Origin: Pseudanabaena sp. PCC 6802
GTDB lineage: Bacteria; Cyanobacteriota; Cyanobacteriia; Pseudanabaenales; Pseudanabaenaceae
Direction: 5' to 3'
Assembly (NCBI RefSeq): GCF_000332175.1
Contig: NZ_KB235914.1
Coordinates: forward strand, 3,592,868 to 3,656,867
Length of the DNA: 64,000 bases
Made by a program: the position numbers and the translations under genes. Positions 10,258 to 12,824 of the stretch are shown here, one piece after another. The notes under the pieces are model-generated. The model ran no database searches and had not been told where the DNA came from. It worked only from the letters and a program-made list of their open reading frames with translations. Every line of letters begins with the position of its first letter. Within the stretch, counting starts at the first letter, position 1.

Positions 10258-11184
10258 ATGAAACGAGCTATTAAAGGACTTCTTAAAAAAGCGCCGTTCT
10301 TTCGGAATCTCGAAGAGAATATTAGAAATCTCGAGGAGCATGTGAGAAGGCAGGGAGCATATCCCGTTGGCCACTATTATTCTCCCATCCCGTCACAAGA
10401 AGATGTTCTTACGTATCTAAGAACGCGCAAGCCGCCGAACAAGGAACTAATCGGCATTAATTTGAACGAACAGAAGCAATACGACTTACTAAACGAGTAT
10501 GCTCAGTTCTATAAAGACCTTCCATTCCCAGAAAAACTAGTTGCTTCGAGCCGCTACTATTACGACAACTCCTGGTTTAGCTATTCAGATGCTATTTTCC
10601 TTTACTGCTTTTTAAGAAAGTATCAGCCTAAAAGAATCGTTGAAGTCGGATCGGGTTTTTCATCTGCTGTAATGCTAGATACCATTGATAGCATTTTTTC
10701 TCAGAGACCGGAAATTACTTTTATTGAACCATATCCCGATCGGCTTAATAGCTTGCTTAGAGACAAGGACAGGCAACAGATAGAATTAATTGACAGAAAG
10801 ATTCAAGAAGTTCCATTTGACATTTTCTCCACTCTAAAATCTGGCGATTTCCTGTTTATTGATTCAAGCCATGTAGTGAAATGCGGTAGCGATCTGCAAC
10901 TGCTTATGTTTGAGATCTTACCACGCATTCAACCGGGAGTCTTTGTCCATTTTCATGATGTATTCTACCCATTTGATTATCCCTCCGAGTGGTTAACAGA
11001 GGGAAGATATTGGAATGAAAATTACTTTCTTCGTGCATTTCTAGCTTACAATTCCGAATGGAGCATCCTATTTTTCAATACCTACGCGCACTACATGTTT
11101 AGCGATATAATAAAAGAGAAAATGCCTTTATGTATGAAGAATCCAGGCGGCAGCTTGTACATTCAACGCAACCAAATTGTTTAG
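10258..11184 (+). CDS. Class I SAM-dependent methyltransferase (Methyltransf_24-like)
   Basis: The protein has 308 aa. A coiled-coil-like N-terminus is followed by a Rossmann-type methyltransferase core: RIVEVGSGFSSAVMLD (SAM-binding glycine loop, residues ~136-150), ITFIEPYPDRL (acidic end of strand 2), GDFLFIDSSH and PGVFVHFHDVF. The substrate is unknown; this group often modifies sugars or peptides in glycan or natural-product clusters. GAGGAAAG precedes the ATG. The gene is AT-richer than its surroundings and contains no GCGATCGC, which suggests recent transfer. It stands alone, with no glycan genes beside it. Confidence 0.85.
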   Translation: MKRAIKGLLKKAPFFRNLEENIRNLEEHVRRQGAYPVGHYYSPIPSQEDVLTYLRTRKPPNKELIGINLNEQKQYDLLNEYAQFYKDLPFPEKLVASSRYYYDNSWFSYSDAIFLYCFLRKYQPKRIVEVGSGFSSAVMLDTIDSIFSQRPEITFIEPYPDRLNSLLRDKDRQQIELIDRKIQEVPFDIFSTLKSGDFLFIDSSHVVKCGSDLQLLMFEILPRIQPGVFVHFHDVFYPFDYPSEWLTEGRYWNENYFLRAFLAYNSEWSILFFNTYAHYMFSDIIKEKMPLCMKNPGGSLYIQRNQIV

Positions 11185-11207
11185 TTGATATGGGTGCGAT
11201 TTTTTAG

Positions 11208-11572
11208 ATATCAAATTCTGCCAATAATACTTTCTTCTCACCCGGAGCGATCGATCTGCAAATCAATGGAGCTTTAGGTGCTTCTTTTAATGAATTGGAT
11301 GCGGATACGGACGATCGCTTGTTTTTAGTGAGCGATGCTCTGGCTCCGTTGGGGTTGCCCGATGGCAGTTATCCTTGGGGTGCACGCGAGATCGAGGTCA
11401 AAAATGGCACGGCGAGGCGGGCGGACGGTACGCTCTAACTATGTTACCGTTGCTGGAATGCGTAAAGAATATGGTGAAATGGGGAATTTGCCTGCCCAAT
11501 CGGGCGATCGCCACGGCAACAATCGCACCGCGTCAAGTACTCAACTTACCAACTGCTTTTCCTGTTATATAG
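11208..11572 (+). pseudogene. nagA: Decayed nagA (N-acetylglucosamine-6-phosphate deacetylase) with internal deletion and frameshift
   Basis: Translation gives three NagA-like blocks in order. FFSPGAIDLQINGALGASFN is the metal-binding region of the N-terminus. LVSDALAPLGLPDGSYPWG, then GTARRADGTL, comes from the C-terminal half and follows in the same frame to a stop at 11436. In another frame LLECVKNMVKWGICLP and RAIATATIAPRQVLNLP continue. Intact NagA has ~380 aa, so roughly 200 residues were deleted from the middle and the reading frame has shifted. The enzyme would deacetylate GlcNAc-6-P; this copy cannot. Confidence 0.85.
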
Positions 11573-11662
11573 CTGTAGACGGATCGGTTAGTACAGGGGG
11601 TGTGGGGGCACAGCCTCCACGCAGGGGTAGAACCCCTGCACCCCGTCATAATCTTTATGGCT
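11566..11662. repeat. Dispersed GC-rich repeat copy
   Basis: It runs from TATAGCTGTAGACGGATC through GGGGGTGTGGGGGCACAGCC to ACCCCTGCACCCCGTC and TTTATGGC. It belongs to the same family as 30746, 34987, 38751 and 54309. It abuts the nagA remnant. Confidence 0.75.
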
Positions 11663-11845
11663 TTGACATACTCACCGAGCTAAAGCAACGGTGATTCTTG
11701 ACGCTTCACAGCTACGCGCTACCGAAGTAGTCTTACCATCGCTCCACGTCCGTTTAGAGTCTCCCAATGCCCTATGGCGACTAGCTACATCTTACCAAAA
11801 AGCCGTGCTAAAAGCACGGGGTTTTAGACCCAATTTTCTGATAAC
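11663..11845 (+). mobile_element. Orphan right end of an IS605/TnpB-type element (possible omega-RNA relic)
   Basis: The sequence pattern (ACGGTGATTCTTGACGCTTC, then CCATCGCTCCACGTCCG, ending in the CCGTGC-taaaa-GCACGG hairpin at 11803-11819 followed by GGTTTTAGACCCAATTTTCTGAT) resembles, from memory, what follows tnpB genes in many cyanobacterial IS605-family elements. In those elements the right end encodes the guide (omega) RNA scaffold. No tnpB reading frame is present here, so this would be a non-autonomous remnant. The hairpin may also serve as a terminator. Confidence 0.5.
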
Positions 11846-11870
11846 TATAGCTTGCCAGATGAGTCGTCAG

Positions 11871-12824
11871 CTAACTTGTCATCTCATCCGCCAGCAAGTG
11901 CATCCCAGGCTCTAGTTTGGCATTTGCACTCTGAACGTGAATTGGTTTGGCAGCGTCGATCGGGACTGGTTTAGAGTGCATGCGTATGATTGCCGCCAGA
12001 GTTTGTTTGAGCTGAGTGCGGGGCACCACAGCATCGACAAATCCGTGCTCTAAGAGATATTCCGCTGATTGGAAGTCATCGGGAATTTTTTGCTTGAGGG
12101 TTTGCTCGATAACCCGCCTGCCTGTAAAAGCAATCATGGCTTTCGGCTCTGCCAGGATAATATCGCCCAGCATGGCAAAACTGGCCGTGACTCCACCAGT
12201 GGTGGGGTGAGTGAGGATGGGAACATACAGCAGTCTCGCCTGACGATGCCGCTCTAAGGCAGCAGAGGTCTTCGCCATTTGCATTAAGCTTAAAATGCCC
12301 TCCTGCATTCTGGCTCCACCAGAGGCACATACAATCGCAACGGGCAAATTTTTCTGCGTAGCAGTCTCGATCAGGCGGGTTAACTTTTCCCCGACGACAG
12401 AACCCATGCTGCCGCCCATAAAGCGAAAGTCCATGACACCTAGAGCAATCCCAAAACCTTCAATACTGCCCAAACCGGTTACGACACTATCACTGAGACC
12501 CGTACTTTCCTGAGTTTCCCGCAGGCGGGCGCTATAGGGTTTGCGATCGCGAAACTCTAAGGGATCGCAGGAATGCAACTGACCGTTAATTTCTGTCCAA
12601 CTGCCAGGATCGGTCAGTTGAGCAATGCGCTCGCTAGAGTTGACCTGCATGTGATGGCCGCATTCGGGGCAAACCATCAAGTTGTTGCGTAAGTCCTTGA
12701 TATACGTGAGGGCAGAGCAAGAACTGCACTTATGCCAAAGCCCGTCAGGTATCTCTCGTTCTTGGTGTTGTTGACCCATGGGAGTTGCCTTGCGGCGATC
12801 GGCAAACCAATCGAACAACGACAT
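11871..12824 (-). CDS. accD: AccD, carboxyltransferase beta subunit of acetyl-CoA carboxylase
   Basis: The protein has 317 aa, the normal length. An N-terminal zinc ribbon (C33, C36, C52, C55: CSSC and CPEC) precedes the carboxyltransferase core with [31 protein letters not shown] and [16 protein letters not shown]. With AccA it transfers CO2 from biotinyl-AccB to acetyl-CoA to make malonyl-CoA for fatty acid synthesis. The gene stands alone, as is usual in cyanobacteria. Confidence 0.97.

Follow-up and report, generated by a model that had tools for sequence, protein, structure and literature searches.

An element of the PATE type inside a host MITE

The window, i.e. the whole stretch of 64,000 nucleotides that was analysed (G000:C5:3592868-3656867), carries on its minus strand the gene accD (TIGR00515), which ends at 11871, 26 bases before a TTAT at 11841–11844. 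It is near certain that the DNA at 11663–11840, also on the minus strand, is a complete gene-less IS200/IS605 element (PATE type), 178 bp long and with both ends, the left end at 11840 and the right end at 11663. The sequence-only reading had placed a tnpB-type right end without its gene at 11663–11845. Its limits were almost exact, but its polarity was wrong, as the right end is on the 11663 side and reads on the minus strand, and the lone right end turns out to be a whole element.

A same-genome search with 11663–11841 gave near-identical copies at C3:10928-11106 (99%) and C5:2304438-2304611 (98%), the latter without the left tip, so the locus is not unique. Bases 1–120 of the query match the DNA downstream of tnpB at C1:873496-873616, C2:47005-47125 and C5:8752-8872 (82%) and at C3:28008-28128 (80%). 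These matches begin at 11663 and sit directly 3' of tnpB genes, beside divergent tnpA genes, which bears out the supposed likeness to DNA that follows tnpB. They run antisense to the window, and the tnpB-sense strand of the element is therefore the minus strand. The left end matches C3:26452-26495 (89%), C5:1053181 and C5:4163737, and the 35 bases of the right terminus recur at three further places in the genome. The sequences at C5:1053181 (L063) and C5:4163737 (L064) are left ends without an R1 scaffold match (R1 is the scaffold model described below).

In tnpB sense the element starts with CAGAAAATTGGGTCTAAAACCCCGTGC directly after TTAT and ends with GAGTATGTCAA directly before AGCC. The start CAG directly after TTAT is also found in the C3 copy and in the full element on contig C3. 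TTAT, which precedes the left end on its 5' side, is taken as the target site and predicted TAM from its presence at the left ends of these two elements and from its position in the copies of the interrupted repeat. This repeat is a host MITE on the plus strand with TATAGC...GCTATA ends, which occupies 11568–11662 and resumes at 11841–11850. When the two flanks are put together, the alignments of all but one (L026) of 23 MITE copies, i.e. 22, span the junction; the empty site thus reads TTAT directly followed by AGCCATAAAG, and target duplication is absent. The MITE family (the window copy and L004–L030) contains a long GC-rich palindrome and is present at at least 33 other genome places among the 40 matches scored. 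Between the MITE and the gene ending at 11184, coding-looking fragments on the plus strand (11200–11440) may resemble an N-acetylglucosamine-6-phosphate deacetylase.

The class assignment follows from the structure. Subterminal palindromes are present at both ends, with the right end 80–82% and the left end 89% alike to those of full elements, the insertion is 3' of a fixed short target, and the transposase gene is absent, as only mechanical short frames overlap the element. Unlike those of a classical MITE, its ends differ (TCAG.. versus ..GTCAA), and it made no target duplication. As a class the element is ordinary, a gene-less IS605 element, but its guide-RNA scaffold is intact.

The left end contains the hairpin CCGTGC-TTTTA-GCACGG (11803–11819, minus strand), which has its homologue in the left end at C3:26452-26495 and, together with the T5 that follows it, is terminator-like. 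The hairpin had been noticed from the letters alone and is indeed there, but it marks the left, tnpA-side end, as in L048 and L062. IS608-type transposases recognise their target through a short left-end guide, whose precise base rule was worked out here by comparing the element sequences. In the window, AAAA (11822–11825, minus strand), 15 nt from TTAT, fits this rule, in which target and left guide are TTAT and AAAA (window and C3), TGAC and CAAG (C1, C2 and C5), or TCAT and GAAA (L031–L033). At a spacing of 15 this holds in 19 of 41 orphan scaffolds, related copies not being independent. When the target is slid by -3, -2, -1, +1, +2 and +3, it fits 0, 1, 5, 3, 0 and 0 of 36 hairpin starts.

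Rfam gave nothing at gathering scores in the window, and at E up to 5 the search of eight orphan and partner loci returned only two chance-level matches to unrelated families. Phage records searched with the element gave no match, and plasmid records gave six, none of which covers 80% of the query. The genus-level search comprised this genome alone.

The guide-RNA scaffold, its predicted guide and its possible promoter

The scaffold set was built from 80 loci encoding relatives of the C3 and C5 TnpBs, taken from named genomes. A pattern search found the scaffold in 73 of them (7 misses), and after near-duplicates and three odd ones were dropped, 66 tnpB-linked scaffolds form alignment A3. In this alignment 98.6% of cells are paired, 23 of 33 pairs show both-sided changes, and both-sided cells number 326, against 77.8±9.8 in shuffled and 10–28 in slid versions; the consensus structure had been chosen from a covariation scan of these very rows, a choice that favours that structure.

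The covariance model R1 was made from the 66 tnpB-linked scaffolds alone, with the window's genome left out. It matches the window on the minus strand only, at 11663–11782, over its full length (1–121) with 120.6 bits and E 2.9e-24. Since this score comes from a model of the tnpB-linked scaffolds of other genomes, the likeness is not due to chance. The kinship with IS605 tnpB right ends is thus real, there is no tnpB within the stretch, as had been said, and the whole 120 nt reRNA (omegaRNA) scaffold, ending ...TATGTCAA, is retained. The program cmsearch marks a few non-standard pairs, one of which is broken here and intact in copy L003. The plus strand shows no unusual folding stability (z -0.48), but this concerns the wrong strand and is uninformative.

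The scaffold is predicted to adopt the structure of a reRNA, including the pseudoknot. The right-end hairpin CACCG...CGGTG (11673–11693, minus strand) is the covarying helix 6 of A3, with GAAT before it (11694–11697). The pseudoknot, helix 2, joins a 5' strand GGCAT (11767–11771, minus strand) to ATGTC near the 3' end (11665–11669). It is paired in 100% of cells in the linked set, where the central pair is CG, AU or UA, and in 98.2% of cells in the orphans. Unlike a regular reRNA, the window scaffold is not linked to a tnpB gene; no PF07282 match was found near the element. In linked elements the covarying 5' strand of the pseudoknot lies inside the tnpB frame (A3 columns 12–16 with 130–134), and this stretch therefore serves protein and RNA at once.

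By analogy with ISDra2, the predicted guide is AGCCATAAAGATTATGACGG (11643–11662, minus strand), directly after the TCAA end and consisting of flanking DNA of the MITE copy. It thus lies left of 11663 and does not follow the CCGTGC hairpin, as had been proposed. A genome search with the guide and TTAT found no perfect target and two sites only, both with two mismatches, one of which is the element's own right-end junction. Near-matches only are as expected of a guide that would address an occupied site. The idea that the guide is directed against other copies of the host MITE was rejected: beyond the first five bases the copies listed depart from the guide, and most of them have CTAT rather than TTAT; in the genome search none was among the guide matches within three mismatches.

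An extended -10-like motif, TGGTAAGAT, lies at 11789–11797 on the minus strand, 6 nt upstream of scaffold nucleotide 1; a scan for -35/-10 pairs found none in the element region. Among 41 orphans, 20 have TGnTAnnnT in the 30 nt before the scaffold, in 18 cases at 5–8 nt, against 3.4% at random upstream places; several of the 20 are near-identical copies. Read-through from accD would be an alternative source of RNA, because this gene ends so shortly before TTAT on the same strand as the scaffold. The left-end hairpin with its T5 could stop such read-through.

Candidate partner genes, and stand-alone scaffolds in other cyanobacteria

Elsewhere the genome has tnpB genes whose products could serve the element in trans, in line with the sequence-only idea of an RNA usable by a TnpB in trans. 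There are four tnpA+tnpB elements with related scaffolds, and the one on contig C3 (C3:26452-28128) shares its TTAT target and its left end with the window element. The C3 TnpB is an open frame of 393 aa, similar to ISDra2 TnpB over residues 4–357 (E 1.6e-65). Conserved among three TnpBs of this genome are D183, E266 and D348, which we take to be catalytic, and four cysteines, presumably for zinc. The C3 TnpA (C3:26497-26850) matches NF033573. Near-identical copies of the window element occur at three places. A TnpA would move it in trans, and the C3 element is the best candidate source of this enzyme, as it agrees with the window element in both its TTAT target and its AAAA left guide.

R1 was searched against 146 cyanobacterial genomes drawn across the phylum (E <= 1e-10), yielding 119 matches in 24 of them, with seven matches in the window's own genome. 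About 1.7 kb upstream, contig permitting, was taken for 99 of the other 112 matches (23 genomes); 13 that start less than 90 bases from a contig end, 11 in G149 and 2 in G075, were left out. Compared with three TnpBs, the 99 upstream regions include 36 with at least 900 nt of tnpB, 12 with partial tnpB and three with partial tnpB at a contig end; 33 have no tnpB, four have under 150 nt of it, and for 11 the upstream sequence is too short. In L249 the scaffold is 295 nt from its tnpB, so the truly abutting cases are 35, not 36. The 85 scaffolds with at least 1 kb upstream are thus divided into 35 linked, 12 decayed and 38 without abutting tnpB, among which L235, L246, L248, L293 and L300 are remnant-like rather than clean orphans. 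The window's family contains two more tnpB-less scaffolds, L065 and L077. As R1 detects scaffold-bearing orphans only, these counts cover no scaffold-less PATEs.

Most orphans share a distinct variant. CC at positions 6–7, facing GG, is found in 33 of 38 orphans versus 4 of 112 linked scaffolds (L293, L246 and L300 dropped), or 34 of 39 versus 3 of 111 once L249 is moved (Fisher p 7e-25, kinship ignored). In alignment A4 the CC orphans are without one base that most linked scaffolds have, and the missing base breaks the tnpB frame. The pairing is nonetheless kept: an alignment of orphans alone, with 33 distinct rows after six degraded ones and duplicates were dropped and with the right-end hairpin left out for its variable length, has 96.7% of cells paired and 81 both-sided cells versus 22.2±5.2. 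Nearest neighbours are mixed. Many orphans are nearest to orphans of other genomes, and the window copy is nearest to the tnpB-linked L170 (87% versus 83%). Together, these relatives suggest, from their sequences, a lasting lineage of stand-alone scaffolds.

Of sixteen orphan-bearing genomes compared, nine have a full tnpB that abuts such a scaffold and seven do not. A protein search of these seven, G017 and G009 found a close intact TnpB only in G009 (71%). The others have full-length TnpB relatives at about 33–47%, and G118 additionally has fragments with stops (71–81%). All 13 scaffolds of G118 (L234–L246) follow a partial or missing tnpB, with none on a full tnpB in the stretches fetched. 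That the distant TnpBs use the orphan scaffolds was considered and rejected, as none of the right ends of six such genes (L315–L320) and L033 scores above the 34.6 bits of L033, i.e. the distant tnpB right ends carry another scaffold type. G081, which has no close intact TnpB, carries three orphan scaffolds that are identical but differ in their flanks. As these orphans sit at different sites, TnpB is maybe not needed for spread. A second, longer orphan type consists of a left end, a conserved non-tnpB leader of about 170 nt (CCCGGATTTAAGATACTCCG...) and the scaffold (L077, L274, L289 and L075, in four genomes).

A proposed satellite transposon with its own guide RNA, and known systems

We suggest, with somewhat more confidence than doubt, that the element is at once a satellite, i.e. 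non-autonomous, IS200/IS605 transposon and a minimal guide-RNA gene, served by TnpA and TnpB in trans. Its sequence shows both ends, a precise insertion on the TTAT side and, on the minus strand, an intact covarying scaffold; intact tnpA and tnpB genes of this family lie elsewhere in the genome. A TnpA made in trans, most plausibly from the C3 element, would peel and paste the element. TnpB would bind, in trans, an RNA that begins near 11782 and stems from the extended -10-like motif or from accD read-through, and the guide (11662 to 11643) would direct this TnpB to the empty donor site, TTAT followed by AGCCATAAAG.... A cut there could lead to repair from a sister copy, which would restore the element after excision. 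Karvelis 2021 (PMC8612924) proposes that TnpB cuts the post-excision donor joint and thereby restores the element. The window element would then have all parts for such a restoration except the two proteins, which are encoded elsewhere in the genome.

Three other readings have to be weighed against the satellite. The element could be a passive PATE, in which only the ends matter, TnpA moves the element, and the scaffold is a leftover or DNA that TnpA needs. PATEs are known as fused IS605 ends down to 52 bp (PMC3119063), and the orphan genomes that have no close intact TnpB, among them G081 with its identical orphans at different sites, fit this. However, in orphans that have lost their coding capacity the stems beyond the right-end hairpin and the pseudoknot stay paired, with compensatory changes in several helices, and the frame-broken variant is common to most orphans and rare among linked scaffolds. 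We therefore regard the passive reading as possible but doubtful. Much less probable is a regulatory or decoy RNA that titrates, represses or retargets TnpB without helping its own retention. Such a role would suit a complete scaffold whose sole genomic near-targets have two mismatches, but its guide necessarily comes from the DNA that flanks its own empty site, an arrangement that full elements have too, and no other perfect target was found. A right end running from left to right, with its guide after the CCGTGC hairpin, can practically be dismissed: similarity and hairpin exist, but R1 matches the minus strand only, the hairpin belongs to the tnpA-side left end, and the alignment with full elements refutes this orientation.

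In the satellite reading, the gene-less relatives in other cyanobacteria would persist as a lineage that keeps the RNA structure and not the protein. More tentatively, we speculate that a lineage of stand-alone guide-RNA transposons, each about 180 bp of ends, promoter and scaffold, has long existed in cyanobacteria as true satellites of RNA-guided transposons. They would borrow TnpA for movement and TnpB for retention, and their RNA would have stayed under selection after coding was lost. Should the RNA prove to be produced and to serve in trans, TnpB guide RNAs would be shown to be capable of existing as independent genes under selection. This would be a possible step from a one-element nuclease to one served by many unlinked guides, as CRISPR nucleases are, and one could then test directly if TnpB also benefits elements to which it does not belong. 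A literature search, which covered few subscription papers, turned up no description of cyanobacterial reRNA elements that lack tnpB.

The full elements of the same genome (C3:26452-28128 and those on C1, C2 and C5) share with the window element the scaffold family, the TCAA right terminus and the GAAT before the right hairpin. They differ in carrying divergent tnpA and tnpB genes, in a scaffold that overlaps the tnpB frame, and in having GG/CC at the place of CC/GG in the orphan. The PATEs of Haloquadratum (PMC3119063) are likewise gene-less, with near-terminal IS605-type palindromes and no target duplication, and some arose by core deletion. The window element differs from them in keeping a complete covarying scaffold and a -10-like motif, and in being bacterial, not archaeal. 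The reRNA of ISDra2 (PMC8612924, PMC10097598) is a right-end scaffold of about 116–121 nt whose 3' end pairs into a 5' segment as a pseudoknot, whose guide comes from flanking DNA and whose TAM equals the insertion target; the window element shares this layout, with its guide and TAM as predicted. Its pseudoknot, -5..-3 with -105..-103 (PMC10097598), agrees with GGCAT/ATGTC of the window family. Compared with ISDra2, the window scaffold is unattached to tnpB, its target is TTAT and not TTGAT, and its RNA is predicted from sequence.
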